Part shown: positions 6,370 to 32,965 of the stretch, piece by piece
Numbering within the stretch: position 1 is the first letter of the stretch
How the letters are laid out: each line of letters begins with the position of its first letter
Assembly (NCBI GenBank): GCA_022822625.1
Contig: JAJEAV010000034.1
Span: 1-49,502 of the forward strand
DNA: 49,502 nucleotides
Direction of reading: 5' to 3'
Source of the DNA: Gammaproteobacteria bacterium
Lineage (GTDB): Bacteria; Pseudomonadota; Gammaproteobacteria; Arenicellales; Poriferihabitantaceae
The notes under the pieces: model-generated
The model's input: the letters and a program-made list of their open reading frames with translations, nothing else
Told to the model about the DNA's origin: nothing
The model's database searches: none
Made by a program: the position numbers and the translations under genes

Positions 6370-7161
6370 ATGTTTTTTGGCTTTGCATTTCGAACTGCGC
6401 TGGTTCTGATACCTATTCTGGTTGTCGGCATTACCATCACCAGTGCCCTTAGCCTCCATAAATTCAGCCAGACATTCTCGACACTCATAAATTCGGGATT
6501 TGAATTCGTAACCGGAGAGGTCAGAAACGGCATCCAGGTCCAACTGGACCTCGGGCTGCTTCTGAAAAATCTGGAAATCGCCCAGACGCTGGAAGAATAT
6601 CAGATTTCAGATAACCAGATTCTCTCCATCGAGGTTTTTGATAACCATGGCGTGGTCCTGCATAGCTCGGATTCGAGCTCCGTATCCGATCTGGTCCCGG
6701 AGGAGTGGGTCAATAGCTGGAGACTGAATTCCACAAACTCCTCCTGGGCACTTCAGGAAAGAAATGCCGGGGTCGTGGGCGTACCGATCAAGAATAACCT
6801 GGGACAGGATGTCGGTGCAGTAGTGCTTCGATATTCCCGCAATTTGCTGGATCAGAACATATGGAATCAGACCCGGCACCTGATTACCGTCAACTCAATT
6901 GCAGCCCTGATCACAATTCTTGTAGCATTCTTCAGCGCCATGTTCATTCTCAGTCGGCTATGCAGTGAGTACAGATCAATGGGAAAAATCATGGATATCG
7001 TAAGAACCAACAAGAAAACGGACACCGAGGAAGTACAACAGGACAAGAACATACGGACTCCGGTTTTTCATCAGTTCATATCCATGGTTCTAGCCACAAA
7101 CAGGGAAATGGACCTGACGATTATGAAAGCCCGGTCTCTGGATGAGGGCAAGGAAAATTGA
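6370..7161 (+). CDS. Two-TM membrane sensor protein with extracytoplasmic CACHE-like domain
   Basis: TM1 (about residues 7-28) and TM2 (about 174-196) bracket a periplasmic domain of roughly 145 residues. That domain contains ILSIEVFDNHGVVLHSS (84-100), typical of a PAS/CACHE beta-sheet. The cytoplasmic tail (197-263) is short and charged, with no kinase, GGDEF or methyl-accepting domain. It therefore probably passes a ligand signal by protein contact. An AGGA lies 9 nt upstream of the ATG, and the stop overlaps the TTG start of the next gene (TTGA), so the two are translationally coupled. It opens a six-gene operon whose products all look membrane-, sensing- or partner-switch-related. The ligand and partner are unknown. 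It is probably a truncated or split paralogue of the sensor module in the next gene. Confidence 0.75.
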   Translation: MFFGFAFRTALVLIPILVVGITITSALSLHKFSQTFSTLINSGFEFVTGEVRNGIQVQLDLGLLLKNLEIAQTLEEYQISDNQILSIEVFDNHGVVLHSSDSSSVSDLVPEEWVNSWRLNSTNSSWALQERNAGVVGVPIKNNLGQDVGAVVLRYSRNLLDQNIWNQTRHLITVNSIAALITILVAFFSAMFILSRLCSEYRSMGKIMDIVRTNKKTDTEEVQQDKNIRTPVFHQFISMVLATNREMDLTIMKARSLDEGKEN

Positions 7162-9302
7162 TCCAGAATAGCGAAACAGCCAGAGCCATCAACCAGGACA
7201 GGTCGCCAGCACCGACTCCACAAAAGGGATTTTATATTCGCCTTCTGCTACTCGGAAGTGCGATCATGCTGCTCAGTCAGGTCATAATCTCATGGTTCGC
7301 CCTAGATCGATTTGAGCAGGCATTGATCCCGCAGTTGAATCAAAAAGCCGTTGCCGTAGGCACGGCACTGGGATCACAAATCACCTATGCCAGCCAGGAA
7401 CTCGGTATTCCGATCAATGAACTGATCGGTGTCAACGACTTCTTTCAATCCACCCTTGACTCAAACCCTGATCTGCAGTACCTGGCTATTGTAGACCTTA
7501 ACGAAGGAGTGCTGTTCCAGTACAATACTCCGCAGGGCGTCATCAATTCACTGATGGGGGAAATGCAGAAACAACCGTATGGGAGCCAGGGTTCGCATTT
7601 TACGGAAGAAATTGCCGAATACCTGGACAGTCGCTTCCCAATCTATGTCAATGGCAATCCGGTTGCCGACCTGCATGTAGGGGTCAGTACGGAAAATATA
7701 CGCCGGCAGCTTTTCACTATCGTATTCGAGATTATTGCAGTCATAATGGTTTCAATGGTGGTAACCATTGAAATTCTGAACCTGTTCATGAGCCGTAACA
7801 TCCTGGCTCCAACGGCACATATCCACAGGGTTTTCGAATCCGGCTCCAGAGGAAAATTCACGTCCCGACTGGCGATGCGTGTCCGCAATGAATTCGGGAT
7901 CATGGTCTCCAGTCTTAACCGTCTTCTCTATGAACTGGAACAACGATATCAGGATTTTCATTTTGAATTGCGTGAATTGAGGGATGCACAGATTGATCCC
8001 AGAATCAGCCAGAAAATCTCGATCATCATTGACCAGACAAACAACCGCTTCGGGTTTTCTGACCGGTTTTCCATACTGGAGAAAACAGCTACGCAAATTC
8101 GCATGCCGTTTTTTCTGTTCATTTTCTCGGAAGAGATGTCGAGATCCTTCTTCCCGCTGTTCGTGGTCGGGTTTATTCCACCCAATCCCGCCCTTTCTTA
8201 CGAATTGATGATATCCATGCCCATTACCCTGTTCATGGTTGCAACCTTTCTGGCGACACTGGTTGCAGGCAAATGGACCTGCCGAGTGGGCTGCTCGCGG
8301 CTGTTCATTCTTGGTATCGCTTTTGCATTCGTTGGATATTGTGGAACCTTTCTGGCCGACAGCTATGCCGAGCTGATTCTCTGGCGGTGCTTGAATGGGG
8401 TAGGTTACGGGCTTATTTTTAACGCCTGCGAGACCTGGATTGCATTACATTCCAAGGAGTCCAATCGTGGTCATGGAGCATCCGCATATGTTGGAGCAAT
8501 TTTCGCAGGGTATATTTGCGGGCCGTCCCTGGGGGGCATGCTGGCAGAATATGTGGGACAGGATACCACCTTCCTGATATCAGCCGGCCTGGCTATCGTT
8601 TCGGGATTTGCGGCTTACCGATTGCTGGCTTCCGATCCCCCTTTCCATCAGGATCTATCCCCCAGTCTGACAGGATTGGAGCCTTGGAAGGTGCTGTTTG
8701 GAAACTCCCGTTTTGTCAGTATCGTATTTACTGCGATTGCGACCAGGACCACGCTCTCTGCATTTCTGTTTTTCCTGATACCCCTGTATCTCAACGAACT
8801 CGGTCACACCACCATCGAAATCGGACAGATGATGATGCTCTATGGCGGGATTATCGTAATTGGCACGCCCGGGATATCGAGACTCTGCGACCGAATCAGG
8901 CGTTACTTTCCAGCAACTGTTGCCGGAGCCATAATCAGTGGGGTAGGGTTGCTGTTCGTCCTGACGAGTGGGCTAATCGGAGAATCAAGAGCAGTGCTCG
9001 TCTCGATTGTTGCAGTCGGACTTGGACATTGCCTGATCCTGGCGCCACAATACGCCATCATGCAGAAAATCGTCTACGAACACCGTGAACAAATCGAACG
9101 ATCAGTTTCCATCAGTATCTATCGGTTTGTTGATCGGATTGGCCTAATTATCGGGCCGATACTGGCCGCCCTGTTGATTCAGACAACATCCTATACAAAT
9201 GCGATTGCGGCCATCGGGCTGATTGTGCTGGTTGCCATGGCCTTTTCGGTGACATTCGCCAACAGGCAGCGTAGTCCAGTCAAGTCAGCCGTAAAGGCAT
9301 GA
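7158..9302 (+). CDS. Sensor module (TM-periplasmic-TM-HAMP-like) fused to an MFS transporter
   Basis: This 714-residue protein joins two modules. Residues 1-300 hold TM1 (about 27-48), a periplasmic CACHE-like domain (49-185, with LQYLAIVDLNEGVLFQY at 106-122), TM2 (187-210) and a HAMP-like region plus coiled segment (211-300). Residues about 316-705 form a 12-helix major facilitator, with the degenerate motif-A loop GKWTCRVGCSRL after the second helix and a second basic loop CDRIRRYF between the halves. The start is TTG at 7158, overlapping the previous stop, and its own stop overlaps the next ATG (ATGA). A ligand-sensing module on a secondary transporter suggests gated transport or a transporter-derived sensor. 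The substrate is not evident. There is no frameshift or stop at the junction, so the fusion looks genuine. Confidence 0.85.
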   Translation: MIQNSETARAINQDRSPAPTPQKGFYIRLLLLGSAIMLLSQVIISWFALDRFEQALIPQLNQKAVAVGTALGSQITYASQELGIPINELIGVNDFFQSTLDSNPDLQYLAIVDLNEGVLFQYNTPQGVINSLMGEMQKQPYGSQGSHFTEEIAEYLDSRFPIYVNGNPVADLHVGVSTENIRRQLFTIVFEIIAVIMVSMVVTIEILNLFMSRNILAPTAHIHRVFESGSRGKFTSRLAMRVRNEFGIMVSSLNRLLYELEQRYQDFHFELRELRDAQIDPRISQKISIIIDQTNNRFGFSDRFSILEKTATQIRMPFFLFIFSEEMSRSFFPLFVVGFIPPNPALSYELMISMPITLFMVATFLATLVAGKWTCRVGCSRLFILGIAFAFVGYCGTFLADSYAELILWRCLNGVGYGLIFNACETWIALHSKESNRGHGASAYVGAIFAGYICGPSLGGMLAEYVGQDTTFLISAGLAIVSGFAAYRLLASDPPFHQDLSPSLTGLEPWKVLFGNSRFVSIVFTAIATRTTLSAFLFFLIPLYLNELGHTTIEIGQMMMLYGGIIVIGTPGISRLCDRIRRYFPATVAGAIISGVGLLFVLTSGLIGESRAVLVSIVAVGLGHCLILAPQYAIMQKIVYEHREQIERSVSISIYRFVDRIGLIIGPILAALLIQTTSYTNAIAAIGLIVLVAMAFSVTFANRQRSPVKSAVKA

Positions 9303-10327
9303 GAATCATGAAGTACCTGCACCATATCCTGCTCACCCTGCTACTGGGTCCACTGCTTGTGCCTCTTGCCGTCAATGCACAGTCCGAACAGGAACCATTC
9401 GAGATATTTGCAGTACTCTGGCGTGGCGAGACAGCTGTTGAAGAAGGATTCCGGGATTACCTTGATCAGAACAATATCCCCTATAACATGACCATTCGCA
9501 GCCTCAACCTGAATCGGGACAATGCCCCTGCACTGGTTGAGGAAATCCGGTTCACAAAACCGGACCTGGTTTATACCTGGGGCACCGGATCAACACTTGG
9601 CATTGTCGGAAGTCACGATTCCGATACCCCCGAAAAGTACATCCGTGATATCCCAACCATATTCGTGCTGGTCGCCTATCCCAAAATGGCAGGGATTGTC
9701 GAATCTTATGAAAGCACGGGGCGCGCTGTTTCAGGCGTAGTGTTTCTAACGCCACTTGATGCACAGATGAATGCAATCCGGGCCTATCGACCATTCAGGA
9801 AACTGGCCTCGATCTACGACAGCACTTCCAGCAATGTGCGAATCAATGTTGAACTTCTCAAGGAGGCCGTGCCAAATGGCGGTATGGAATTTGTTCCAAT
9901 CCCCATTGATCTCGATGAAAATGGAAAATCAGACCCAAACTCGCTGCAGCGGCTAGTCCGCGAAGCAAAGTCCCAGGGAGTGGATGTACTGTATATTGGC
10001 CCGGACTCGTTTTTTGCCCGACATGGTGACTTGTTCAACAAAATCGCAATTGAGGAGGGCATGCCAACCTTTGCTTCCACCGAATTCCCGGTCAAGCAGT
10101 CACATAGCCTGTTTGGTTTGATCTCGGATTACTATACTGTTGGCAAATTGGCCGGCCTTCAGGCTGAAAAAATTCTGGTTGAAGGCATTCCCCCAGAGAA
10201 CCTTCCGCTCGCCCAGCTGGAACGCCATAAATTGTGGATCAATGTGGATGTAGCGCGCGCGCTGAATTTATATCCTCCAATGAACATGGTCTCAATCGCC
10301 GATTTCAACGATAGCGGTTATGAATAA
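9299..10327 (+). CDS. ABC-type periplasmic substrate-binding protein (PF04392 / TrpX-like), no cognate permease
   Basis: A signal peptide (about residues 1-27, ending VNAQS) exports the protein. The mature part is a type 1 periplasmic binding fold: YTWGTGSTLG, IPTIFVLVAYPK, SGVVFLTPLDAQ and the second lobe with YIGPDSFFARHG are typical of the PF04392 family, which includes TrpX proteins for aromatic amino acids. Neither an ABC permease nor an ATPase gene is nearby. The gene sits between a sensor-MFS fusion and an RsbU-like sensor phosphatase and overlaps the former by 4 bp. A role as ligand-presenting co-receptor for those periplasmic domains is therefore more likely than import. The ligand is unknown. 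Confidence 0.85.
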   Translation: MRIMKYLHHILLTLLLGPLLVPLAVNAQSEQEPFEIFAVLWRGETAVEEGFRDYLDQNNIPYNMTIRSLNLNRDNAPALVEEIRFTKPDLVYTWGTGSTLGIVGSHDSDTPEKYIRDIPTIFVLVAYPKMAGIVESYESTGRAVSGVVFLTPLDAQMNAIRAYRPFRKLASIYDSTSSNVRINVELLKEAVPNGGMEFVPIPIDLDENGKSDPNSLQRLVREAKSQGVDVLYIGPDSFFARHGDLFNKIAIEEGMPTFASTEFPVKQSHSLFGLISDYYTVGKLAGLQAEKILVEGIPPENLPLAQLERHKLWINVDVARALNLYPPMNMVSIADFNDSGYE

Positions 10328-10360
10328 GCGGTTGTTCTACCCGAATCGGGTGATTTAATC

Positions 10361-12478
10361 ATGTTGCTCCGTACGAGAATAAGCTTCATCGTAACCCTGA
10401 CTATCGCCTTTATCTGCGCGAGTATCATTTTTGTCGGGCTGGAGCGGGAACGATTAATCAAGAATCAGTACGCACATGAGTCCGCCAACGACCAGTCCTC
10501 GCTCTGGTCCAAGGTCTCGCTGGGTATCATTAAAGAAATGGAAGACAGTACATCACTGATTCTGGATAATACTGCCTTGATCAGGGCGGTTGAAGCGCAG
10601 GATTCCATGCGCATTCAGGAATTGGGACGAGAGGTCGCTACTTCATTAACCCGCACTCCAACTGTCGATCGCCTGGATATTGTTTATTCGGATGGTTCGA
10701 TTGCCTTTTCATCATTGCCCAGTGTATTTCAAAGGGCACCAATCTCGCCCGCCATAGCTGCGGCCTTCATCCGGGACGGTTCGATCGCAACCGGGGTTGG
10801 CAATGACACGAACCAAAATACCTATCTAGCCTATGGATTTCCAATCGGGACTGACGGTAATCGACCTGTTGGCATGGCCATTCTTTCAATCGATATTCTG
10901 ACAGCGATCACCGAAATGGAAAACATCACCGATTCCCTGGTGATTCTTGTCAATCGGCGGGGACGCCTGATTTCGGCGACGGACGGCAGTCTATGGAGGG
11001 GCCTGTACAACCAGATTGATCTGGACGATCTGAAAACGGTCCAGAACGCCAACATTGATGACCGGTACTTCTCAATTACCGTACTGGAACAGAAGGCCGA
11101 GCTGTCCGGACTGATCGGCCGCATCATTTTCGCCAAGGACATTTCACAGCTGATTTCCAGCCAGCAAGCGATCAGTCGACCGTCTGCCATTTTCATTTCC
11201 TGCCTGATTATGCTATTTCTGGCTGGTTTGTACATATACATGTCGCGGGCCTTTGCTCCGCTTTCCGAAAGCGTCAACGTGCTTGATTCCCTTTCCAAGG
11301 GAGACTTGCAGGCACAGACCGAGGAAACCGATACTGACAATGAAATAGGAAAGATATCGGAAGCCATCAATGTGTTTCGAGACAACCTACTGGCACTCAA
11401 CCGATACAGGAGACTCCGTGAACGGCAACAGGCCCGGCAGAAGCGTTTCATCATTAAGGAAATGACCAGTCTCTCGGACACCCTTGAAGGTGATGAGCGA
11501 GAGGAGATCATTGAACAGCTTGAAAAAATCCGGACCATTGTCCATGAAAGTCCGGAGGATACGGACCAGCATGAGCAAATCATCCGAAAAATCAAGAATA
11601 CGGATGATCAGGATACCCAGAAAGGGCCAGACAGTCTGGCCATGATGGCACTCGCTTTTCAGCATATGTCGGGACGCGTGCAGGATGCAATGCACACCAA
11701 GGAAGAACTGTCATCTATCCAGAAAGAGCTGGATATTGCAACCCGGGTACAGCAGTCCCTGGTACCGGAAAATCTCGACATTTCAAGACATTTCAATGCA
11801 ACAGGCTTTATGACACCGGCCAAGGAAGTGGGCGGGGACTTCTATGACATGTTCCGGCTTGATGAACATCGAATCGGGGTTGCAATTGCTGATGTATCGG
11901 GTAAAGGGGTTCCTGCAGCACTGTTTATGGTAATGGCCAGAACGCTACTTCGAAGCAAGGTGTTTCATATCGACTCACCGGCAACCGTACTCGAGCACAT
12001 GAACGATTATCTCGAACAGAACAATAACGAACAATTGTTTGTCACCCTGTTCTACGGCATACTCGATGAAAAGCAGGGCACCTTGACCTATTCAACGGGC
12101 GGACACAACCCACCGATTGTCTCGGATAACAATGGAACGCGGGTACTGGAACAGACTGAAGGTGCTGTTCTGGCCTTGATCAATGATATTGTGTTCAAGG
12201 AAAAGTGTGTTGCTCTTGAAGATAATTCTCGTATCGTGTTTATGACTGACGGGGTTCCGGAATCCTTTAACAAGAACGGTGAGGCATATGGAGATGACAG
12301 GACTCTCCAGACCATAGAAAACCTGGAGCCCGGACAAACACCGGAAGAAGATATGAAACAGTTAATCGATAGTGTAGAATCTTTTGTTGAGGAAGCGCCT
12401 CAATTTGATGATATTACCTGCGTCATCCTCCACTACAAGAAAGATAGACATGAATTGACTGGTAATCGTGATGACTGA
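10361..12478 (+). CDS. Membrane-bound RsbU/SpoIIE-type PP2C serine phosphatase with sensor and HAMP domains
   Basis: Domain order: TM1 (7-27), a periplasmic double-CACHE-like sensor (about 28-270), TM2 (274-294), HAMP (295-348), a long charged coiled coil (350-465) and a SpoIIE/PP2C phosphatase (about 466-705). The metal-binding motifs GGDFYD (491-496), DVSGKG (511-516), MTDGVPE and FDDITCV are all present, so the phosphatase should be active. Such proteins dephosphorylate STAS anti-sigma-antagonists. The next gene encodes the matching RsbW-like kinase and overlaps this one by 11 bp. It follows the binding-protein gene after 33 bp. A short inverted repeat ACCCGA/TCGGGT lies just before the ATG and includes the likely ribosome binding site. 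The STAS substrate is not in the operon; the only candidate in the window is at 32966-33298. Confidence 0.92.
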   Translation: MLLRTRISFIVTLTIAFICASIIFVGLERERLIKNQYAHESANDQSSLWSKVSLGIIKEMEDSTSLILDNTALIRAVEAQDSMRIQELGREVATSLTRTPTVDRLDIVYSDGSIAFSSLPSVFQRAPISPAIAAAFIRDGSIATGVGNDTNQNTYLAYGFPIGTDGNRPVGMAILSIDILTAITEMENITDSLVILVNRRGRLISATDGSLWRGLYNQIDLDDLKTVQNANIDDRYFSITVLEQKAELSGLIGRIIFAKDISQLISSQQAISRPSAIFISCLIMLFLAGLYIYMSRAFAPLSESVNVLDSLSKGDLQAQTEETDTDNEIGKISEAINVFRDNLLALNRYRRLRERQQARQKRFIIKEMTSLSDTLEGDEREEIIEQLEKIRTIVHESPEDTDQHEQIIRKIKNTDDQDTQKGPDSLAMMALAFQHMSGRVQDAMHTKEELSSIQKELDIATRVQQSLVPENLDISRHFNATGFMTPAKEVGGDFYDMFRLDEHRIGVAIADVSGKGVPAALFMVMARTLLRSKVFHIDSPATVLEHMNDYLEQNNNEQLFVTLFYGILDEKQGTLTYSTGGHNPPIVSDNNGTRVLEQTEGAVLALINDIVFKEKCVALEDNSRIVFMTDGVPESFNKNGEAYGDDRTLQTIENLEPGQTPEEDMKQLIDSVESFVEEAPQFDDITCVILHYKKDRHELTGNRDD

Positions 12479-12902
12479 AGAAAATAAACTGAGTTTCACC
12501 ATCAAGAATGAATTATCTGAAATACCGCGTATAGCCGAGGTAATCGCGCAACACGGGCAAAACGTCAATTGGCCATCCATGTGGATATCGAACGCTAATC
12601 TGGTGCTTGACGAATTAATCTCCAATACCGTTTCATACGGCAATCTGAATAGTTCGGAAGCAACAATCCAGATCGACCTGATTGCCGAAAAAAATCAGTT
12701 GATGATTGTCATGGAAGATGACGGCATAGAGTTCAATCCTTTTGAAGAGGCCATTGAACCCGATCTGGAAGCGGATATTGGAGACCGCCTGATTGGTGGG
12801 TTGGGAGTCTATTTTGTAAAGATCCTCACCAGTGATTATTCCTATGAGCGAGTTGACAACGTCAATCGAATTCGACTTGTGCTGGAAGCCACTGAAGAGT
12901 GA
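12468..12902 (+). CDS. RsbW-like anti-sigma factor serine kinase (HATPase_c)
   Basis: A GHKL ATPase domain of about 145 residues, the full length for RsbW/SpoIIAB proteins. The N box LVLDELISNTVSYG (ExxxN), the G1 box EDDGIEFNP and the G2 box GGLGVYFVK are all present. GTG at 12468 is followed at once by ATG at 12471; either may start translation, both inside the 3' end of the phosphatase gene. These kinases bind a sigma factor or other target and phosphorylate a STAS antagonist. No sigma factor gene is in the window, so the output may be a protein or enzyme instead. Its stop overlaps the hydrolase start (GTGA). Confidence 0.9.
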   Translation: MMTEENKLSFTIKNELSEIPRIAEVIAQHGQNVNWPSMWISNANLVLDELISNTVSYGNLNSSEATIQIDLIAEKNQLMIVMEDDGIEFNPFEEAIEPDLEADIGDRLIGGLGVYFVKILTSDYSYERVDNVNRIRLVLEATEE

Positions 12903-14020
12903 AGCGACTTGTGCATGGCCTTGAGCGAGATATAGGGTTGGGACGGTATTCTGTACGAATTGCTGATGCGGCCTTACGAGAATGGTTTAGACAATCCAAC
13001 AAGCCTAAACTCGGCAAGCTGACATGGGATGATTATCATGTCATGCTCAATACGATAACGCAGAGTTTTGAGCATATGCCCGAAAAGATGAACTTTCGGT
13101 ATCTCCACCCGGTTCGACTGCAGGATCCTGAACTAGGTCGGGGCAAGCCCTATAGTGTCCCCGTTTCCTATTCCGACACGCAAAATGGAGCTGAACCTGT
13201 CATTGCCATTGGCGGGTTAATCAACACCAAGCATCGTTTCGACTTTCTAGCCAATGATATCCATCAGGATCTGCGAATCATTGCCCTGGACCTGTGTGGT
13301 CGGGGGGGTAGCGGCTGGCTGGCTGAACAAACGGATTATTCGATCAATACGCATGTTGAGCTATTGCGACAATTCATGGACCACCTTGAATTGCCGTCCT
13401 GCACCTTGCTCGGTTCCTCCCTTGGTGGTTCGATTGCCATCCGGTTTGCCGGTCATTTTCCGACTCGGGTCAAACAGATTATCCTGAATGACAGCGGCCC
13501 CTATATTTCAAGGGTAAGAAGGCGCCAGCGCTCAATTACGATTGCCCGGCATTATGCCTTTACGACCCCGGAGGAAATGTTCAGAAAAACCGCCATTTCC
13601 ATGAAGCATTCAGGGACAGCTCCGGATGCGTGCCTGTTCTATAACCAGCATTACAAGACGCGTTGGTCTGAAGAGGAGAGTGGCCGAATCTACCGTCACG
13701 ACATTCGGGCGATGCTGGCCTATCGAGCCGCAGCGACCCAGAACCTTGATCAATGGGAGTATTGGGATCAGATAAAGTGTCCGGTTCTGCTATTGCATGG
13801 ACTTTCAAGTAATACACTGTCAAACAAGACCATTACTCGTATGCGAATCAACCCGTTGTTATCAGTGATTCATATTCATGGGGCCGGTCATACACCAAGC
13901 TTGAGTGATGGAGAACTGAATCAGTGGATAGCAGACTGGGTGCGGGACGACAAGCCCTATGAGACAGATCGGTACTATCATAACCCGGAACACTACGAAA
14001 GCATATTCTATAATGCCTGA
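12899..14020 (+). CDS. Alpha/beta hydrolase
   Basis: The alpha/beta hydrolase core lies at about residues 98-350 behind a ~95-residue N-terminal extension. The nucleophile elbow is GSSLGG (Ser174) and the oxyanion region precedes it (IGGLINTKHRF). The likely catalytic His is in HIHGAGHTPS near residue 320. The start is GTG overlapping the previous stop (GTGA), so it is produced with the partner-switch kinase. Its N-terminal extension has no recognised domain and could be a contact surface. This is an unusual companion for an RsbU/RsbW pair, although RsbQ-type hydrolases activate RsbP phosphatases in Bacillus by a signalling role. That precedent makes a ligand-processing or signal-carrying role plausible. 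The substrate is unknown. Confidence 0.85.
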   Translation: MKRLVHGLERDIGLGRYSVRIADAALREWFRQSNKPKLGKLTWDDYHVMLNTITQSFEHMPEKMNFRYLHPVRLQDPELGRGKPYSVPVSYSDTQNGAEPVIAIGGLINTKHRFDFLANDIHQDLRIIALDLCGRGGSGWLAEQTDYSINTHVELLRQFMDHLELPSCTLLGSSLGGSIAIRFAGHFPTRVKQIILNDSGPYISRVRRRQRSITIARHYAFTTPEEMFRKTAISMKHSGTAPDACLFYNQHYKTRWSEEESGRIYRHDIRAMLAYRAAATQNLDQWEYWDQIKCPVLLLHGLSSNTLSNKTITRMRINPLLSVIHIHGAGHTPSLSDGELNQWIADWVRDDKPYETDRYYHNPEHYESIFYNA

Positions 14021-14199: not shown

Positions 14200-14784
14200 A
14201 TGGATACTGCCCAATTTGAACCCGCTCCGTGCGGATTTTATTTTGCTCGCCATGGCGAATCCACATACAACCGGCAGGGTATCACCTCCGGTGGTGACTG
14301 CAATCCGGGACTGACACGATTCGGTATCGGGCAGGCCAAAGGCATCGCCAGGACTCTTGGGGACTGTGAGGTATTACCGGGCATGATAATTACTTCACCA
14401 TCAATGCGCAATGTCGAGACCGCACGGATTATCTCTCAGGCGCTTGATCTGGATGTACGTATCGAAAGCACACTGATGGAACGGTTTCTGGGCGAATGGA
14501 ATGGACAATCACGCGAACTCACCGCTTCCTTGCTGAAACAGGGAGTCATGCCTCCAAACGGTGAGAACGCTCAACATTTCAGCAAGCGGATACTCGATGC
14601 ATTTCAGTTGTTGTCGAGGTTTTTCGATCGGTGGCCATTGATTATCGGCAGTCGCGGTTCCTCACGAATTCTACTTCAGGAATTAGCAGGGAGCACGCAG
14701 GCCTATCTGGACAATGGTGAAATTGTGCTGGTTCAAATGTCTACGCCTATGGAATTTCACAACCTGGACCTGCACAGACTTTAA
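14200..14784 (+). CDS. Histidine phosphatase superfamily protein lacking the second catalytic histidine
   Basis: The phosphoglycerate-mutase-like RHG motif is intact (ARHGES, R17 H18 G19), as are SPSMRNVETA (R70) and the acid region MERFLGEW (about 93-100). In active members a late motif with the second catalytic His (usually SHGG) follows. Here the aligned position reads GSRGSSR (151-157), with Arg152 in place of His. The protein may therefore be a poor enzyme, a pseudoenzyme, or one using a variant mechanism. It lies 179 bp after the hydrolase gene, the same direction, and could be the last gene of the sensor operon or separate. I see the substitution directly; loss of activity is inference. 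Confidence 0.8.
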   Translation: MDTAQFEPAPCGFYFARHGESTYNRQGITSGGDCNPGLTRFGIGQAKGIARTLGDCEVLPGMIITSPSMRNVETARIISQALDLDVRIESTLMERFLGEWNGQSRELTASLLKQGVMPPNGENAQHFSKRILDAFQLLSRFFDRWPLIIGSRGSSRILLQELAGSTQAYLDNGEIVLVQMSTPMEFHNLDLHRL

Positions 14785-18543: not shown

Positions 18544-19006
18544 CCAGACCTATTTCACAGGTGTATCACCTACCCTGTCATGGTCAACTGGGTTGTCCTG
18601 TTCCCGGTTATTGTACGATTTCGGCACAGGTAGATATCACGCAAATGGCAACGGCTATCTGAAGGGTCGTAAGTGGAAATCGAATCTGTGGATAGCAGGT
18701 GGAGCTACGTTCATTCTTGCTGCGGCTGTTTTTCTGCCCCGAATATCGGCACAGAATCGAGACAGCCAAAAGATTCAGAAGAATATCTCGGCACTCCACC
18801 TTTAGTGCCGGATAATGGGAATAAAACGGGACCTGAAAATCAGCCCGATTTGCTTATGCGGCCGAGAAGATTCGAAACGCCTCCGATAGTCTTTTAACTA
18901 CAATACCTTAGAAGATTTTGCAAGCAGTTTTGTTACACAGTCTTTGGTGCGGAAATAGCATTCCTTCTCAAGCTCAGAGCAAATGGTCGGGTCGTCTCTA
19001 TCTCAT
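18544..19006. other. Gene-free stretch between znuB and the defence island
   Basis: Two short frames (18593-18805 and 18673-18897) together look like a possible decayed small membrane or secreted protein: one has a TM stretch around WIAGGATFILAAAVFLP, and the other continues in proline-rich sequence in a different frame. No family is recognised. Near its end, at 18900-18913, is ACAATACCTTAGAA, partner of a similar sequence beyond the island. Confidence 0.3.
18900..18913 (+). repeat. Left copy of an imperfect 14-bp direct repeat bracketing the island
   Basis: ACAATACCTTAGAA here and ACAATGTCTTAGAA at 32836-32849 agree at 12 of 14 positions in the same orientation. They lie outside herA on the left and outside the broken ardC on the right, so they may mark an integration or duplication boundary. 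No integrase is present, and the match could be chance. Confidence 0.25.
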
Positions 19007-21073
19007 CTAAAAAGGTACCTCATCATCTAGGTCTGGTCCGCTATCGTTTTGCTGTTCTTGGTTTTCCGGTCCAGCAATCCCCCAACTTTCGACGACATCT
19101 GCCAATGGAAAAACTGTGTCTTTGGACCAATCCACATAAGGCGCGGCGGTAGCGCTCCAAGGTTCTTTTGAAGGCAATCGCACCTGGGCACGAGCAGGAA
19201 CGTGAAAAGCACTCCCAAACAAAATAGCTTCTCCGGCTGCGAGAACTGTGACTTGATCCAGTAATCTCTGGGCCTGTTTGGGAATAATTCGCCGGAAGTG
19301 GTCAATGTCATCTGGGTTTTGAAGGCGATGTGAGAAGAAATTTGCACACTGGCTAATTATTGTCGGGCTAATTTCACTGGGTCTCTGGCTGGCTACGATA
19401 AGCGAGAGTCCGAACTTACGCCCCTCTTTTGCGACACGCTCGAACGATCTACGGGAAAGGCTTTCTCCACGGTCTTCATGGGTGCGAGGCGGTCTCGCAT
19501 AGTTATGGGCTTCTTCCAGAATAAGAAGCCACGGATACTCGCTCCGAATATCTGGCTTTAGCATTTCCCGCGTTTCCAGAAACAAACGCCCTAGCAAAGC
19601 GCAGGCAAAAGGTAAAACCTCTGACGCCAACATTGACATATCAAGCACAGAAACCCGTGACGCAGATTTTTGACCGACACCTAGCTTATTCATCCATTCC
19701 TGAAATGAGTGGATATTCTGGTCTTCAAAACTGAAAAAAGACTGCCACCTGCGGTCATCAAGCCGAGTGCGCATTCTTAATTTAAGCGTCAGCAAATACT
19801 GATCAATTTTCTTGCTGCTATCCTGATCTGTGGAACGGTCTACCAGGTTTGGATCACGAAACTCATGAACTGGAACGAACCTAGGGGCATCTGCCGACTT
19901 AGCAAAATTCACACCTTCATTTTGTCGTTCTGATATATTCGCGAGTAACGTAGTCCTAATCTGTTCAAGGAAATCACGAACTTCTCTGTCATTGCCAACT
20001 CGCCGCCATTTGCAATCCCCATTCGGTGTCCAGTTTAGCTGTCGGTCAAATTCACCCCAGTCAATAATATCATCTGGCGCATATTGTTTCGCATGATTTA
20101 TTGCGAGGTCAAAATTGCTCGCAGGCGTATTACCATCAAGCCAACTGATTGCTGAATCGATTTTGCCAATAGCGGTCTGAACTGGATCATAGGGACCTGC
20201 ATCAGTCGGATTTGCCTTTGCGATTGCCCACCAGTCTTTCAATACAGGTTCCTGCGTCGCCTCAGATGCCTGAAGCCAATCGCAGATTTCCTCGCCATTC
20301 ATCAACCAGGCGGGCAATCCAAACTCTTCTCCATTCAAGTAAAGTTTGTTCGGTTCTCTCTGATAGTTTGCTTGATCGTCGCTCAGAAATGCGTTTGCAT
20401 ACTCGCCGTTAATATCGAGAATAAAGATGTGGGGGTCCGCACCATTATCACGCTGCATTCTGTCATTCTCAAGAATGACTCGGACAAGACTTGCAACAGT
20501 GTATGACTTCCCCGAACCTGTATTTCCTACAACCGCCAATGGCCTCGAAAACATGTCATTAAAGGATGCCTTTATTTTTGTATTTTCGTCGCCCGTATGA
20601 TGTCCAATCTCCAGTGGAAAATCGAAATCGCCTTCATTCCAGTCTTTTGGCTTATTTCTCAAAGGGGGATGTTCAAAAATCCAGGAAAGGACTTCGGGGT
20701 TGGCAACCTCAGCAGGGGTATCAAGAGTCGGAAGAATAGTTATGCCCGCATCAAACTTCCATTCTCCTTGTCCAAATTGCTTGACAGTTCCAAGCAATTG
20801 AACCGCCGCAATCCTTCTAGGCTTTATCAACTCTAATGATAGTTCTTCATTTGTTGACGGATCATAGCTTTCTCTTGCTTCAAGATCGCTCAAAATTCCA
20901 ATCGCATGGGTGCCGGCGCCTAGGTCGAAGGTCAAAAAAGAATTGATTGCGACCGCGCGTTGCACGCCATCAGGTGTAGCCCGGGATGAGGATTTTGCTT
21001 CAGTTGATAGTTCGACTTTCAAACGAAAACCGTTGACAGAGACAACATGGCCTATGACGCGTGGCTGCTCCAT
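19007..21073 (-). CDS. herA: HerA-family hexameric ATPase, partner of SIR2-like protein
   Basis: The N-terminal HAS-barrel-like region (residues 1-120) is followed by the HerA/FtsK-type ATPase core. Walker A is GNTGSGKS (183-190), and FILDINGEYANAF is the conserved strand after it. Walker B is LLILEEAHNYA, and the arginine-containing sensor is VASQRPSEIS. The acidic C-terminus resembles other defence HerA proteins. Its ATG overlaps the SIR2 stop codon (TAATG), so the two are made together. In the known SIR2-HerA anti-phage pairs the two proteins form a large complex in which SIR2 depletes NAD+ on infection and HerA contributes ATPase/DNA translocation activity. It is the last gene of the island operon. 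Confidence 0.92.
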   Translation of the reverse strand: MEQPRVIGHVVSVNGFRLKVELSTEAKSSSRATPDGVQRAVAINSFLTFDLGAGTHAIGILSDLEARESYDPSTNEELSLELIKPRRIAAVQLLGTVKQFGQGEWKFDAGITILPTLDTPAEVANPEVLSWIFEHPPLRNKPKDWNEGDFDFPLEIGHHTGDENTKIKASFNDMFSRPLAVVGNTGSGKSYTVASLVRVILENDRMQRDNGADPHIFILDINGEYANAFLSDDQANYQREPNKLYLNGEEFGLPAWLMNGEEICDWLQASEATQEPVLKDWWAIAKANPTDAGPYDPVQTAIGKIDSAISWLDGNTPASNFDLAINHAKQYAPDDIIDWGEFDRQLNWTPNGDCKWRRVGNDREVRDFLEQIRTTLLANISERQNEGVNFAKSADAPRFVPVHEFRDPNLVDRSTDQDSSKKIDQYLLTLKLRMRTRLDDRRWQSFFSFEDQNIHSFQEWMNKLGVGQKSASRVSVLDMSMLASEVLPFACALLGRLFLETREMLKPDIRSEYPWLLILEEAHNYARPPRTHEDRGESLSRRSFERVAKEGRKFGLSLIVASQRPSEISPTIISQCANFFSHRLQNPDDIDHFRRIIPKQAQRLLDQVTVLAAGEAILFGSAFHVPARAQVRLPSKEPWSATAAPYVDWSKDTVFPLADVVESWGIAGPENQEQQNDSGPDLDDEVPF

Positions 21074-22494
21074 TAGGTGTCACCCGTTGGTCCACACGAC
21101 GACGTATCCTCAACCTCTCTTATTTGTTCCTCAAACCTACGTAACTGTTTGAAATCCTCTAACCATTGCACATCGGGCATTACGTTTTGGGCAAAATCTG
21201 CAAACGTGGCATTCTGATATGTGCAATCCTGACCATCTTCAAGTCGCTCTGTAAGAACGAACGCCCTTTGGCCAAGATTTTGGTATCGGCTAATTCGTTC
21301 AATAATCTGGCTGTTTGGATTAGGTTCAACGACCAGCATCACAAGCGAGGGATTCATCAATGCGGTCTCTATGATGCGATTCACATGGTCATCGCCAAAT
21401 CCATACCCAAGAACCAACAGGAATGTTTGCGGCTGGTTTAGGCGGGCATGAAACAGCCTGAATAAATGTGCATACGGTATACCAAGCGTCTGCATAAATT
21501 TTTGTGACGTCGGCAGGATGCCAAATGGCCCGATATGTTTATACTCATCAGATTGAAGTTTTGTCGCTTTTGTAGCGGGATCACTCGCGCGATATTCATT
21601 GGCAAAAGCTAAATCTTTATGTTGCGCCCGATAGATTCCACTATCATCAACATACCAATGCAACGAGCCGTGAAGCTTATAATACTGAACAAACTTATCG
21701 AACCGGCGGACCCGTCCCTCGGCAATGTCACCAGGATAGTAAATGTCCAACCCATAAACAGCCGGATCGAACCGCGCTGATGCCTTCCCTGAGAACCCGT
21801 CAAAATACTGGATTCCTAATTCTTCAAAAGCCTGCTCAAACAAAGTGTCGTAGTTGAGGGTGAATAAATGTGTGCGCCCAAGGTTTGTGTCACGCGCAAT
21901 AAGTTTTGCCAAAAATGGGATATGACCCGATGAGCCGCCTGACGAGCCTCGCGACAACTCTCTTCGATCTAATTGAAGCGCGCATTCCGCGTAAATTGCC
22001 TTTTCAAGATATTTGCAAAGATTCTGCTCATCTTCTTTGCTTAAAGTTAGCGGCTTCAAACCTTCTTCTTCAGCATTCTCATCTTCGATGCGCCTTTTCC
22101 AAGCAATTGTATCTATTGGGGAGTTTTCCGAGCTTGCAAGGCCAGATGCGTTAAATATATAGCTAAGCCAATCTTCAAAATTACCTTGTCCGAAATCGTT
22201 AGACTTCTTCCATTCTATGATCGCTCTGGCACCATCGGATTGCTGACATTGTTCCACAGCATCTAGCACCAAACATTCAAGATTATTCTGCGCGGGTCCA
22301 GCCATGAGACGCCCACCTGTACCCACTGAACAACCGGCCGCCGTTAACACAACAACGCTCTCCATACGGAGCCAATCCGCTAACAGTGCTTGGATACGGC
22401 GCAGACCTTCTTCCTGATTTTTTCCCGCTAGTAAATCCTGGCTACCGCTCACAGAATCTGGGGAAAGAAGCTTGTAGTTGCTAAAATCGCTCAC
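21073..22494 (-). CDS. SIR2-like NADase effector of a SIR2-HerA defence pair
   Basis: A SIR2-fold protein of 473 residues. The nucleotide-binding loop is [12 protein letters not shown] (51-62), the catalytic-site Asn motif is [13 protein letters not shown] (Asn214), and the general-base His is in YKLHGSLHW (His275). The late motif [16 protein letters not shown] fits SIR2_2-type defence proteins, not deacetylases. Such proteins hydrolyse NAD+ and stop growth of infected cells. The start is GTG, and it overlaps the stop of the type III Res gene (GTGA); the stop overlaps herA. Translational coupling to a restriction enzyme gene is unusual for this effector. The active-site residues look intact. 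Confidence 0.92.
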
Positions 22495-25400
22495 ATCGCC
22501 ACCTCGCTCACCAAGTCCATCAATTTGGCATAGTCTGTGACTACATCGTGTTTAACCTTCTCTGATAAAATTTTTTCATTTAGCTCGGTGAAGAACTTTC
22601 GCGCGCACTCAATTTTGGTTTTTTCTATTTCCCGCAACTTCATTGAGGACATAGATCCCTTTGTCTCTGCTACAAAATAGACGTGTCTAACGCTGCCATG
22701 CTTAAAAGAAATCGCCCAGTCGGGATTGTAATCGCCGACTGGTGTAGGAATAAGGAACCCTCCCGGCAGTTTTGCGTAGACAACGACCTCCGCACTAGTG
22801 TCGAGATCTTCCACGAAACGGCGCTCGACATCGGAATCTGTCACGCAATAGTCATAAACGTGATTATTGAGCTTACTGCTCGCACGAGAGAAATCTTGGC
22901 CTGTCTGAGCCGCCGTAAAAATATCGGTATCAAAACGATTCTGGACCTCATCGTAGGAGAGTTTCTCGATAATTACTGTCGCTTTCTGTTCGTTTATCAA
23001 ACGTGATGCTTCGGCGATGAAGTGCTCCGGATTCATTCGGAACTGCCCAAATATCCCTGGCTCTATGCCAGACAATATCTCCGCTATCGTTTTACGTGTC
23101 AGATGGGCATTCTCAGCGATTTTACCTATAAGGTCATAAGTTACATCGGAATGGACAGTGCCACCCGTTTCCGTGGTGGTGTCAGTTAGTTTGAAGCTGT
23201 CACCCGTTTTCAATTGATCGTCAGTCACCGCTGCATTTTGCTCGCCAGTCTGCACGATATATTGAAGTGGTGTCACACGTAATTGGCTATCCAACGCGCT
23301 AATTGCTTTCTTAATCAACTCGCTTGATTCAAAGTCCACGCGATATACTGCTTTGCGGTTAATCCGGGACCAGAGTTCTTGAAATTCTTTTTTCTCAAAA
23401 TTGTCGTTGAGTGGATTGGTTTTCGGTTTCCGCCCATCGTCAATTTTTGGCAATTTGCTGTCGTCGAAGACGCTATCTATCAGATCAACGATTTGATCGG
23501 TATAAGCTTTCAGCTCATCTGGAAGCTCAGCCAACTGACCAGAATCCTTGGCCGTGTGATAGGCATCCGTAATGCTGTCATCGTCGTCCGTGTAATCGTT
23601 CTTCAACAGATATCTGTATATCTGCTTCGCCATTTGGGGCGTAACTTCAATCGGACCCTCAGGCGTATCCAGCATCTTGCCCGTAAAATATTCCTCATTT
23701 GCTTTACGTGGTCGGGCAGATAATGTTTCGGAAATCTCCGTCTGCAAACCCTTTACAAAATCCCGATAGCTCTCACTTGCCACAACAGTCAGCACATTTA
23801 TGTCATGCACAATAGCTGGAAGGTCCATGCGCTCACCGTTCTGGTCAACAGACAACCGCAGGCCTCGCCCGACCTCCTGACGACGAGAAATAGTATTGTC
23901 GCTATACTTCAACATGCACATGACAAAAACATTGGGATTGTCCCACCCTTCGCGCAAGGCTGAGTGAGAGAAAATAAAACGGACTTTGCGCTTGGAATTA
24001 TCCTCTGCGCTTGATGACTCGCCGTGAAAAGCCAAAAGACTTTCCTTGTCCTTTAAGATTAAGTCATATGCATCCACATCATCAGAATGTCCGGCATTCT
24101 CTCCCTTTGTCTTCGCTTTCGGATCTTTCAGGCGCTTGGTCTTTTTATCAATCGCGAAGTAGCCTTTGTGGGTTTCTTCAGGGCTAATACCTGCCAAATA
24201 TTTACGGTATGCTTCATTATCAATTGCAAGCTCGGTAAAATATTCATCTTTAAGCAAATTATACTCACGTTCAAAAATACGGGCATATTCGCCTTTCTCA
24301 TCTTGCCTATCATAATCACGGTATTTCACCACCTCGTCGATGAAGAAGAGCGACAACACCTTAATACCTTGGGCAAAAAGCTGTTTTTCCTTGTCAAAGT
24401 GGGCCTTAATGGTTTCGCGGATTTGGATGCGGCGAATATCTTTTTCGTTCACGTCGCCAGTTGCTTCACCTGCCCGCAAAGTGATGCCATTGGTGAATTC
24501 TACCGTGTCATGATTATAGTCGATTTGGGAAATGACAAAATCATCGCGGTATTGATCCAGCTCACCTGATTTTATGAAGAGATTATCCTTAAACTCTAAT
24601 CGCCTAATCTCACGCTTGATTTCGCCAGATTTCATTTTTACTTCCATCTCGACCCGTGCAACTGGAGCCTTCTTTGAGATGTCGATACCTTCGAGATAAA
24701 GATAAGCATTGGTACCAGCTAGGCCGCGCGTTTGTATGCCGCGTACCGCGATTTTCTTCACCAACTTCTGATTATAGGCGTCGAGCGCATCTAGGCGGTG
24801 AACCTTATTGTGTTGGCTGCGGTGTGTGGCTGAATAGCGCAAGATCATCAGCGGATTAAACTTTGGCAAGGCCTCAAGCGTTGCCTTACCTTCCATCTTT
24901 TGCGGTTCGTCAAGTATCAGGATAGGCCGGTTGCTGCTAATCACATCAATGGGGCGGCGTGACTGAAAGTCATCCAGCTTGTCATAGATACGGCGGTTAT
25001 CAGCACCTTTGGAGTTAAACGCCTGAATGTTGATAATCATGACATTGATACCAGCATCCGACGAAAAGCCTTCCAGATCATGCAGTTTTTTTGAGTTATA
25101 AATGAAGAAGCGAGCTTTCTTGTGATAGCTTTCCGAAAAATGGTCCGCCGTTATCTTGAATGACTGATAAACCCCTTCACGGATTGCAATACTGGGCACC
25201 ATGATGATAAACTTTGACCAGCCATAGCGCTTGTTCATTTCAAAAATGGATTTGATATAGCAATAGGTCTTGCCCGTGCCGGTTTCCATCTCGATATCAA
25301 GATTGATCAGCGCACCCGGCTTATAGCTTTTCGGTTTGGGCTTCAGCTTGCCCGATTTGTCCACCTCGTAATAATCATCAAGCGCTTTTGAAGCAGGCAG

Positions 25401-25622
25401 GTTTTGTCGTTTCTGCACTGCCTGAATATTGGCCTGCAACTGGACACTGGTTAGTTTGATATCCTCATTTTTGAACCCAGACTCATCAAGTGAAGCCTGT
25501 TTTGTCGTGCCGGGATCCATGCGATATGAAATACCGCTATGAAAAGGTTGCCCCGCAAAACAATCCACCGCCGCATCAACAGCATTGGTCTGATAATCCT
25601 GAACCTTAAACTTTAACTTCAT
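22491..25622 (-). CDS. Type III restriction enzyme Res subunit (helicase + nuclease)
   Basis: A superfamily 2 translocase of 1043 residues. Walker A is METGTGKT (112-119), the DExx box is LDEPQ (motif II), motif III is SATH and motif VI is QEVGRGLRL. The C-terminal PD-(D/E)XK nuclease is visible as D968, E986 and K988 (PDW...AETKG). It cleaves DNA after ATP-driven travel from unmethylated recognition sites in complex with Mod, encoded 18 bp upstream. All motifs are intact and the length is typical of Res. The downstream SIR2 gene starts inside its stop codon. Confidence 0.93.
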
Positions 25623-25640
25623 GACTTACCCCAATCCGCC

Positions 25641-27527
25641 TTAAATTGACTTCACATCGGTTGCGGGGGATAGCTGGCGGAAAATCTGTTCAGCATTGAT
25701 TTTCACAGCGTCAGAGACAAAGCCATTGTCACGGAACACGACGCGCATGGGCTGGTGGCTGGCAAGCTCTTTTACCAACTCCTCGGTCACATCCTTATCA
25801 AAGCAGGCGATCAAGTCATAAGATTCTTCATTGACGAAAAAGACGGACTTGCCCTGAATGTCACGCTTTTCAATCGGCAAGGTCAGGTCAACACCCCAGT
25901 CCAAAAGCACCTGAAACAGTAGGTCTTCGGGGTTATCACGGCCAGGCTTGATATTTTCAACACTGGCCAGCAGGTCTTTTTGATCAACAGCGCCCGGCGT
26001 GTAATACACATCTGCCATATTGCTGGTATCAATTTTCAGAACACGGAAACCAACGTCCTTATTCCAGTTTTCGTGACATTCACCTTCGAGAGTTTTTCTG
26101 CCGGCGCGGCGAATCCGTTCTTTGGTTATTTCAGCAATATTAGGATAACCAGCCGAATATGCATCTGATTTTTCATCAGTCTCTTCCGGCAACTGCACAG
26201 TTATGAATTGTCGATTTACACCATCGTTTTTGCTGATATTGAGTACTGAATGTGCAGTTGTTCCAGAACCTGCAAAGAAATCCATTACTATGTCATTAGG
26301 CTCAAATGCGACCTGCTCAATTAGCTTTTTAAGAAGAATTGTAGGTTTGGGAAAATCAAAGTATTTCCCACCCAACAAATCGCGCAGTTCCCTTGACCCG
26401 TTAAGAGTATACCCGACCTCCTCTCCCAAAACGGATGAGAAGCCCGTGAAATTATTTTTAAGTTCTGAGCGGAACTTCTTCTCGCGAGGCCTACCGTCAT
26501 CCTTTTTAGGGAAAATAATTCTTTCATCAGCAATTTTCTCGGCCATAGGAGTTTTCGAATATCGCCAACCGCTGTCTGGCGGGCACATAAATTCTCGACC
26601 GGTCACCGGATCAGTAATGGGAAAATGCAAGTTAGGACGCTGAGATGCGCTGGCCAATCCCAGAATGCTATTACTCATCCAAGGCCCACGCGGATCACTA
26701 TCCGGATTAGAATACTTAGTTGCATCAATCTCTTTACCGCGAAGGCTAAACTGTTCAATTGATCTAGCGTAAATAAGAATATATTCGTGATCTGTTGATG
26801 AGTTTGTCTTGTTTCTGCTGTCAATGATTTGACGCGATTTCCAAATTAAACTGCAAACGAAATTTTCTTGGCCGAATAACTCATCGCAAACGCCTTTAAG
26901 GTTTTTAAGCTCTTTGTCATCGATACTGATTAATAAAGCACCGTCAGGCCTCAACAAGTCTATTGAACGGCGAATCCTCGGATACAAAAAAGATAGCCAA
27001 TCCGAGTGAAACCTACCATTTGAAGAAGTGTTTGCGACTAATTTATTACCCTCAATATCCTGTGAATTTGATTTCAGAAGGTAATTCTGATTATCCTCAG
27101 AAAAATCATCCTCGTACACGAAGTCATTGCCCGTGTTATAGGGCGGGTCGATATAGATCATCTTGACTTTGCCGAGGTAGGTCTCTCGAAGCAGTTTCAG
27201 TGCTTCCAAGTTATCGCCTTCGATAAACAGGTTTCTGGTTGTATCAAAATCTACGCTTTCCTCACGGCACGGGCGCAAAGTTTTGGCAATAGGCACATTG
27301 GCGGTCAGTAGTGCTTCGCTCTTGCCTGGCCAGTTGAGGTGATAGCGCTCTTGCGGGCCTTCAACGATATGGTCGCTTAATTCTTGTTTGAGCTGGTCAA
27401 AATCTACAGCCAGGTGCAGCTTGCCATTTTCACCTTCTGCTTCGGTCACACAGCCTGGGAACAGGTCACGAATCTTAGCGATATTCTCATCTGTCAAATT
27501 GGGGCTGTGCATTTTAAGTTTTTTCAT
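25641..27527 (-). CDS. Type III DNA methyltransferase Mod subunit (beta-class m6A)
   Basis: The catalytic motif DPPYNTG lies at 127-133 and the AdoMet motif DFFAGSGTT near residue 405. This order, with a target-recognition region between, marks a beta-class adenine methyltransferase of type III Mod type. ATG at 27527 is preferred over the frame's first Met at 27569: it begins right after the stop of the 92-aa gene (1-nt gap) and gives the usual 628-residue length. It modifies host DNA and gives sequence specificity to the Res partner. The recognition sequence cannot be read from the protein. Confidence 0.93.
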   Translation of the reverse strand: MKKLKMHSPNLTDENIAKIRDLFPGCVTEAEGENGKLHLAVDFDQLKQELSDHIVEGPQERYHLNWPGKSEALLTANVPIAKTLRPCREESVDFDTTRNLFIEGDNLEALKLLRETYLGKVKMIYIDPPYNTGNDFVYEDDFSEDNQNYLLKSNSQDIEGNKLVANTSSNGRFHSDWLSFLYPRIRRSIDLLRPDGALLISIDDKELKNLKGVCDELFGQENFVCSLIWKSRQIIDSRNKTNSSTDHEYILIYARSIEQFSLRGKEIDATKYSNPDSDPRGPWMSNSILGLASASQRPNLHFPITDPVTGREFMCPPDSGWRYSKTPMAEKIADERIIFPKKDDGRPREKKFRSELKNNFTGFSSVLGEEVGYTLNGSRELRDLLGGKYFDFPKPTILLKKLIEQVAFEPNDIVMDFFAGSGTTAHSVLNISKNDGVNRQFITVQLPEETDEKSDAYSAGYPNIAEITKERIRRAGRKTLEGECHENWNKDVGFRVLKIDTSNMADVYYTPGAVDQKDLLASVENIKPGRDNPEDLLFQVLLDWGVDLTLPIEKRDIQGKSVFFVNEESYDLIACFDKDVTEELVKELASHQPMRVVFRDNGFVSDAVKINAEQIFRQLSPATDVKSI

Positions 27528-27528
27528 T

Positions 27529-27807
27529 TTATTCTTTACCCTTCGACAAGACTTCAAATTTCCATCCAAAATAGCTGTATAAAAATTCGCCTCCGCCTTC
27601 GCGGTCGGTCAACTTTGCCCTGATACGGAACTTTGCCCCAACAGGATATTCCCATGAGAGTTTCTTGGAACATTCTACATGCAAATTTTCGGTGAATCCT
27701 TGGCCTACACATGGGCGGATATGAATTTTCCCATGCAGTCCGGTTATTTTTTCGGGTCGATAGCTCTCAACCTTGACCAGTTGATATGGTTCATTCAGTT
27801 TTGCCAT
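27529..27807 (-). CDS. Conserved-context 92-aa protein of unknown function
   Basis: A small, probably all-beta, basic protein (PYQLVKVESYRPEKITG near the N-terminus; a Trp- and Tyr-rich C-terminal segment ending FGWKFEVLSKGKE). No family is recognised. Its start overlaps the DUF4391 gene by 17 bp and its stop is 1 nt from the mod start, so it is clearly translated as part of the operon. The size and composition would fit a nucleic-acid-binding or complex-assembly subunit, for example a small beta-barrel. That is inference only. Confidence 0.7.
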   Translation of the reverse strand: MAKLNEPYQLVKVESYRPEKITGLHGKIHIRPCVGQGFTENLHVECSKKLSWEYPVGAKFRIRAKLTDREGGGEFLYSYFGWKFEVLSKGKE

Positions 27808-31743: not shown

Positions 31744-31848
31744 TCCTACACCCCATCAGTCGAGCTATTACGAGTGCTGGCGAGTTCTTCTGAGTCGCCA
31801 ACGGAATGCTGACGACTCAGTTCATGCGCAAACAGCTTTGCGTGATAC

Positions 31849-32031
31849 TCAGTCGTCATGTCTTTTCGCTCCCTTATCTATCCACTTATCAATGTCTGCC
31901 TGTCGAAAACGCCAACTTCCTCCCACTTTGAACCCTGGCAATTCACCTTCTGCCGCAAGGCGATAGGCCGTCTTCTCCGCGATATTGAGATACTCAGCGA
32001 CTTCGCGGATCGTCATGATGTCGGTTGTCAT
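31849..32031 (-). CDS. Excisionase-family HTH regulator (MerR-like/AlpA-like, 60 aa)
   Basis: The protein is essentially one winged-helix excisionase-type domain: MTIREVAEYLNIAEKTAYRL is the HTH, followed by GELPGFKVGGSWRFRQADID, the wing. This is the TIGR01764 pattern. A purine-rich GGGG precedes the ATG by about 6 nt. It lies 105 bp before the SNF2 gene, same strand, so it heads the island operon. Proteins of this type control defence islands and mobile elements or assist excision. No integrase is in the window. Confidence 0.85.
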   Translation of the reverse strand: MTTDIMTIREVAEYLNIAEKTAYRLAAEGELPGFKVGGSWRFRQADIDKWIDKGAKRHDD

Positions 32032-32057
32032 GAATCACCCCTATAAAGGTCGTTGAG

Positions 32058-32086
32058 AAAATACGGGAAAATTGACCAAGCTACAA
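32058..32086 (-). promoter_or_regulatory. Candidate promoter of the defence operon
   Basis: On the minus strand, TTGTAG (32086-32081) and TATTTT (32063-32058) are separated by exactly 17 bp, about 30 bp upstream of the HTH regulator ATG. The match to sigma-70 consensus is only moderate. Confidence 0.3.
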
Positions 32087-32869: not shown

Positions 32870-32965
32870 GGTGTGGCTGAGAGCAATCGAACCCAACCCT
32901 TCATGAAAATCGGGGTAGATGTCTACCTTGTCAAGAATTCAATCTCCCAAATACGGGAGAGCGAG

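Follow-up and report, generated by a model that had tools for sequence, protein, structure and literature searches.

Genes and features of the window

The window, the whole 49,502-nucleotide stretch of a gammaproteobacterial contig (JAJEAV010000034.1) that was analysed, carries a sensing operon of seven genes, here called A to G, on the plus strand, and a companion amt-stas operon on the minus strand. Its features are:

6370..7161, plus strand: gene A, two-TM periplasmic Cache-type sensor without an enzymatic output domain (263 aa, two hydrophobic segments, weak Pfam Cache match)
7158..9302, plus strand: gene B, Cache-like sensor, HAMP, signalling helix and complete 12-TM MFS domain of DHA1-type fold (714 aa; Pfam HAMP and MFS_1)
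9299..10327, plus strand: gene C, periplasmic binding protein PF04392 (342 aa, ATGA overlap, E 1.6e-17)
10361..12478, plus strand: gene D, sensor-HAMP-PP2C (SpoIIE) phosphatase (705 aa; HAMP E 5.5e-8, SpoIIE E 1.5e-47)
12471..12902, plus strand: gene E, RsbW/SpoIIAB-type HATPase_c_2 kinase (143 aa; E-value 2.5e-15)
12899..14020, plus strand: gene F, alpha/beta hydrolase (373 aa, GTGA overlap, Abhydrolase_1 E 1.1e-17)
14200..14784, plus strand: gene G, histidine phosphatase superfamily, seventh operon gene, after F in most relatives
18548..32939, no strand assigned: inserted defence island, outside the system (site without the island in G006, locus L116)
32966..33298, minus strand: STAS, stand-alone protein of the anti-sigma-antagonist type, on which D and E are predicted to act as a substrate (110 aa; Pfam STAS)
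33370..34722, minus strand: Amt-S, TIGR03644-like paralogue of the ammonium transporters that shares an operon with STAS (450 aa, no domain besides Amt)

The six plus-strand reading frames A to F that an earlier note had described all lie where it placed them, and the Pfam matches agree with its assignments. Its set of six was right as far as it went, but it lacked G as well as the genes for STAS and the dedicated Amt, and did not take in that A-B-C is re-used as a module; the operon is counted here as seven genes because G follows F and is conserved. The TTGA, ATGA and GTGA junctions are present at A/B, B/C and E/F, respectively, and the start codon of B is a TTG within the overlap with A. 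The "33 bp" overlap proved to be a gap of that length between C and D. Genes D and E share 8-11 bp; a GTG at 12468 is a possible alternative start of E, giving 144 aa.

The operon and the amt-stas pair are far apart in the window because of the defence-island insertion, together with the znu genes. The alignment of the window to G006 breaks off after 18547 and resumes at 32940, with ~300 bp between these points in G006, and 14.4 kb of defence genes between znuB and stas in the window. The island encodes a HerA and SIR2 pair (19007-22494), a type III restriction-modification system (22491-27569), and DUF4391 with an SNF2-type helicase (27791-31743). No 12-bp direct repeat was found at its ends. 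Elsewhere in the window are a nucleotidyltransferase matching the PADLOC candidate family PDC-M05A (413-1153, minus strand) and a GmrSD_C plus Excalibur protein (1672-2421, plus strand). A zinc-ribbon, transposase-like ORF (16290-16766, minus strand) has a 4-bp overlap with znuA and is at the same place in L063, L061 and L116; it may be domesticated.

Conserved order and recurrence in other lineages

One hundred related genomes were compared, and orthologous loci were fetched and read by tblastn; these came from two families (f1 and f11) of one order. The earlier note had proposed a conserved functional unit, a claim that turned on the gene order being kept. The unit survived this test: A-B-C-D-E keep one order in each of the 12 loci that are assembled far enough (the window, G001, G004, G005, G010, G013, G033, G041, G046, G051, G055 and G059), usually followed by F and G. 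F follows E in most relatives; it is absent in G010, not found in G013 and broken in G002. G010 has STAS and lacks F, G and Amt-S.

The amt-stas pair is convergent to the operon and close to it in the f11 genomes and in G013; in G033 it lies ~140 bp from G. In G001 and G005 the pair is a few kb from the operon, with znu-type genes between. In G004, amt has been relocated to a place immediately upstream of A, on A's strand, and STAS is still convergent; since the relocated amt remains beside the operon, the amt/stas linkage survived the rearrangement. Chance adjacency of STAS and Amt is ruled out by the convergent f11 pairs, the rearranged but linked G004 and the island-free G006 site. Over the 100 relatives, B was found in 14, the STAS orthologue in 15 and Amt-S in 14, with overlaps of 13-14; hypergeometric values for this match are not true probabilities because the genomes are related and few independent events are involved. 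The rearranged cases and the unrelated lineages are stronger evidence than the phyletic profiles.

Three kinds of gene fusion link the sensors with the kinase and the phosphatase. D and E form one protein of 856-865 aa in five f11 genomes (G033, G041, G051, G055 and G059; Pfam was run on G033). At L061 (7959-9119) an HATPase_c_2 kinase carries a C-terminal TM-Cache-TM sensor, that is, an E-A fusion, an architecture that is, to our knowledge, not described in the literature. L151 and L152 each carry a fusion of A with B. In G002, A-D have been replaced by the set [HATPase + TM-Cache-TM fused] - B' - C' - GNAT-like - D', and of the original genes only E (83% identical) and a broken F are left.

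In a phylum-wide search the B family was found in 9 of 398 genomes. G769, from another class, has E-STAS-A-B-C-A-D in one stretch, and in G662 a single locus contains E, D, B, C and STAS. In G702 (L149), D-B-A-C, with E divergent, adjoin a gene for an export-apparatus protein of the FlhB/YscU family, and further neighbours, by the N-termini of their ORFs, read like other T3SS export proteins. This set beside T3SS export genes recalls BtrU/V/W, which controls the T3SS in Bordetella. On a Nitratidesulfovibrio plasmid (L090), a binding protein, a large MFS protein and a 578-aa protein are encoded near a CesT-type T3SS chaperone.

Many A-B-C triads have no PP2C, kinase or STAS gene that could be found nearby. 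Triads with no D/E found nearby adjoin T6SS-type genes in Vibrio records and several other genomes, some of the T6SS calls being readings of ORF N-termini, and adjoin GNAT-like and ATP-grasp genes in Azospirillum. A-B-C or B-C stand by GNAT/ATP-grasp genes (Azospirillum) or apparently within T6SS clusters at L087, L088, L091, L147, L148, L151, L152 and L099. A HAMP-MFS protein with a binding protein is a possible T6SS regulator. From the fusions and the other lineages, STAS, D, E and A-B-C appear as a recurrent set, A-B-C as a module with several outputs, and Amt as an addition in the order to which the window belongs.

The partner switch and the ammonium transporter

RsbU/RsbW pairs control a STAS protein and a target. 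The earlier note had assigned D and E to such a pair with a STAS substrate, and the stand-alone STAS gene was located in the same window, 71 bp downstream of amt-S. A Pfam search of the genome found STAS domains in three places: a SulP transporter, an MlaB in an mlaDCB-like run, and the stand-alone protein. A STAS partner from another locus was rejected, the other two domains being those of the SulP protein and of MlaB. One SpoIIE protein (D) and one HATPase_c_2 protein over the cut-off (E) were found in the genome. The assembly surveyed (2.56 Mb, 92 contigs) is 94% complete, so these single-gene counts, and the count of zero for GGDEF proteins, could miss a gene. As the phosphatase (SpoIIE), the kinase (RsbW-type) and the stand-alone antagonist-type STAS were found once each, the partnership of D, E and STAS is nearly forced.

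The motifs are in keeping with this. In the translation of D, GGDFYD, DVSGKG, TDG and DDIT are intact. E has the N-box (E48, N52), G1 (D83, G85) and GGLG (109-112) and is closest to RsbW/SpoIIAB anti-sigma kinases; the closest solved structure to STAS is SpoIIAA. STAS has a conserved phospho-serine region, in which S53 and S54 are invariant. A complete D/E/STAS partner switch is well supported by this analysis, and the phosphorylation itself would follow from what is known of the families.

The ordinary Amt proteins of the order fall outside the clade (100/99) that Amt-S forms. The gene downstream of it is stas, at 54-358 bp across loci with the exception of G004, and glnK is absent there; a glnK-type ORF adjoins most ordinary Amt genes sampled (L102, L103, L105, L106, L112, L113, L114, L119 and L120). 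Residues F146, W187, D199, H207, F257, S263 and H366 are invariant in Amt-S and the ordinary Amt and presumably correspond to the AmtB pore residues (Phe gate, twin His, Asp and Trp). An intact pore fits both a transporter and a sensor and does not tell which of them Amt-S would be. No output domain is fused to it. Amt domains with long C-terminal extensions, probable sensory Amts, were seen in relatives at L108, L109 and L115 (ORFs of 630 to over 1300 aa).

Amt proteins are controlled by GlnK, and the C-terminal tail of AmtB takes part in this control. The cytosolic tail of Amt-S mostly reads LGQDxAELGIEAYPEFxxMPD followed by an acidic end, and that of the ordinary Amt xGMDxADCGMEAYPEF, ending within a few residues. 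The changed tail, and stas standing where glnK would stand, suggest, but do not prove, that STAS is the partner of Amt-S in place of GlnK.

Input, output and meaning

No PF04392 protein other than C was found in the 2.56-Mb assembly. The model of C (pLDDT 90; folding alignments were made without plasmid-derived rows) is closest in fold to CD0873, VC_1101 and SP1069, whose ligands are tyrosine, phenylalanine and tryptophan, respectively (PMC6816091). Tyr278 of C occupies the position of CD0873 Tyr-279 and VC_1101 Tyr-262, which makes the pocket of the Phe/Tyr type as opposed to the Trp type. However, C has Thr at the CD0873 Glu-263 position, and Tyr127 lies in a VAYP motif, which all orthologues of the lineage have in place of V(S/T)DP, Asp being the usual residue there in other triads; the ligand may therefore be another one. 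An amino-acid-like ligand is plausible from the model. C resembles TrpX, CD0873 and VC_1101 in fold, overall pocket and Tyr278 but, unlike them, has no gene for an ABC permease or ATPase next to it in the window operon, and the A-B-C-D-E order leaves no such genes in the orthologous loci. A TrpXYZ-type ABC importer was rejected on this ground. C scores 63.4 bits, below the NCBIfam TrpX equivalog cut-off of 390.

The AlphaFold model of B (mean pLDDT 78) combines a Cache-like domain in the periplasm and a HAMP/signalling helix with a complete MFS domain of 12 helices, whose closest folds are VMAT, NorA and MdfA, i.e., a predicted exporter-type fold for amine-like or amphipathic compounds. The earlier proposal that the MFS protein and the hydrolase handle one compound, to which the histidine phosphatase is added here, is supported in part: in Azospirillum ramasamyi a sensor-less MFS gene is followed by F and G homologues.

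Taken together, the locus probably encodes a membrane-sensing partner switch that has its substrate, and its likely target, in the companion amt-stas operon. In such a switch, C and the periplasmic sensor domains of A, B and D would read an extracellular small molecule, and C, from its location, would feed the ligand to the periplasmic domains. Sensor A would set the activity of kinase E, as the E-A fusion in a related system suggests, and the sensor/HAMP part of D would set its own PP2C phosphatase. The D-E fusions suggest that D and E work side by side. E would phosphorylate, and D dephosphorylate, STAS in the region of the invariant Ser53/Ser54. The MFS domain of B, with F and G, would probably transport and process the same or a related compound. 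As the most likely of the outputs considered, unphosphorylated STAS would then control the adjacent Amt-S, in the place that GlnK has on an ordinary Amt. This last step, the weakest of them and drawn from adjacency, co-inheritance and tail divergence, is put forward tentatively, with the chances somewhat against it. Amt cannot be a universal target of the switch because the same switch occurs with no Amt nearby in G769, G662 and G010. More doubtful is the fullest form of the proposal, in which the switch would gate a membrane channel directly. An extracellular ligand, sensed through the binding protein and the Cache/HAMP sensors, would set the phosphorylation of STAS, and STAS, in place of GlnK, would turn a dedicated ammonium channel on or off; A-B-C would be a general plug-in sensor coupled elsewhere to T6SS/T3SS.

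The kinship of E to anti-sigma kinases and of STAS to SpoIIAA would also suit a transcriptional output: unphosphorylated STAS would sequester E, which would otherwise hold a sigma factor or another transcriptional regulator, and amt-stas would be one target of the regulon. The occurrence of the switch elsewhere with no Amt nearby fits this as well. However, neither the operon nor its conserved neighbourhood showed a sigma-factor gene, and the amt-S linkage was kept through the G004 rearrangement, whereas regulon membership needs no adjacency; we consider such an output possible, if on the unlikely side. Amt-S might instead be the input, an ammonium receptor signalling to STAS as Ks-Amt5, an Amt-histidine kinase described as an ammonium sensor (PMC5764959), signals to its fused kinase. 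This is improbable, as ordinary marine Amts (~50%) are nearer to Amt-S than are the Amt fusions of the same order, and Amt-S has intact pore residues and no fused output domain. Its best solved relatives do include Amt chains of 644-661 aa and 6eu6, which we take to be the Amt domain of Ks-Amt5.

It is very unlikely that C, B, F and G form a transport or metabolic operon merely lying beside an unrelated phosphatase/kinase pair. The A-B-C genes of Azospirillum, Vibrio and others, near which no D/E was found, and the sensor-less MFS-F-G run of A. ramasamyi, would agree with it, but the A-E order is kept, an E-A fusion exists, and D/E accompany A-B-C in differing order in G769, G662, G702 and G002. 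Least probable by far is an output in which STAS activates a diguanylate cyclase, as in the Sia system. The layout of D (HAMP + PP2C) resembles SiaA, but D scores 62.3 bits against an NCBIfam SiaA cut-off of 700, and E, an HATPase_c_2 protein, differs from the SiaB kinase family, which is distinct from HATPase_c_2. A SiaD-type, c-di-GMP output was excluded because no GGDEF protein was detected in the 94%-complete assembly.

The preferred reading, a membrane-sensing partner switch with a companion amt-stas operon, shares its parts with several known systems. Like RsbU/RsbW/RsbV, BtrU/V/W, SypE/A and HmpU/V/W, it has a PP2C phosphatase, an HATPase_c_2 kinase and a single-domain STAS with an invariant Ser-Ser-Ala-Gly-Leu. 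In Rsb-type switches, reviewed in PMC8256260, the kinase phosphorylates STAS and the phosphatase reverses this. Unlike them, the input here is a PF04392 binding protein with a separate Cache sensor and a sensor-HAMP-MFS protein, D and E are fused in some genomes, the companion is an ammonium transporter, and the conserved neighbourhood showed no sigma gene. In SiaABCD of Pseudomonas aeruginosa a membrane sensor-HAMP-PP2C phosphatase likewise opposes a dedicated kinase on a STAS-like protein (PMC7647112), but the kinase is of another family and the system has no SBP/MFS input. Amt-S shares with AmtB-GlnK and Ks-Amt5 the Amt fold, the intact pore residues and a cytosolic partner encoded next door; it differs from AmtB-GlnK in that the partner gene is stas and the conserved tail is another one, and from Ks-Amt5 in having no fused kinase. 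As in RsbQ-RsbP, an alpha/beta hydrolase gene is co-inherited with a partner-switch phosphatase, but D senses in the periplasm and RsbP through a cytosolic PAS domain. F was rejected as an RsbQ: its best solved relative is 4ose, and no RsbQ-named chain is among the 60 matches listed.

The open-licence literature contained no description of the A-to-G set or the Amt-STAS pair that we could find; subscription papers may hold one. This variant of the partner switch is real, conserved and apparently undescribed; its input module is unusual, and an ammonium channel accompanies it. With STAS encoded near the operon and beside an ammonium channel gene of its own, the arrangement suggests a novel route by which an external signal could be coupled to ammonium traffic. 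If this is true, STAS would provide a second route, through serine phosphorylation, that links external chemical cues to ammonium exchange. The host is a marine bacterium, probably sponge-associated to judge from isolate names, and if these bacteria do live in sponges, such a link would matter for the sponge animal-microbe symbiosis. A-B-C is a seemingly portable sensory module found by T6SS/T3SS genes, and the identity of its ligand could open the way to the cue that those systems answer to.
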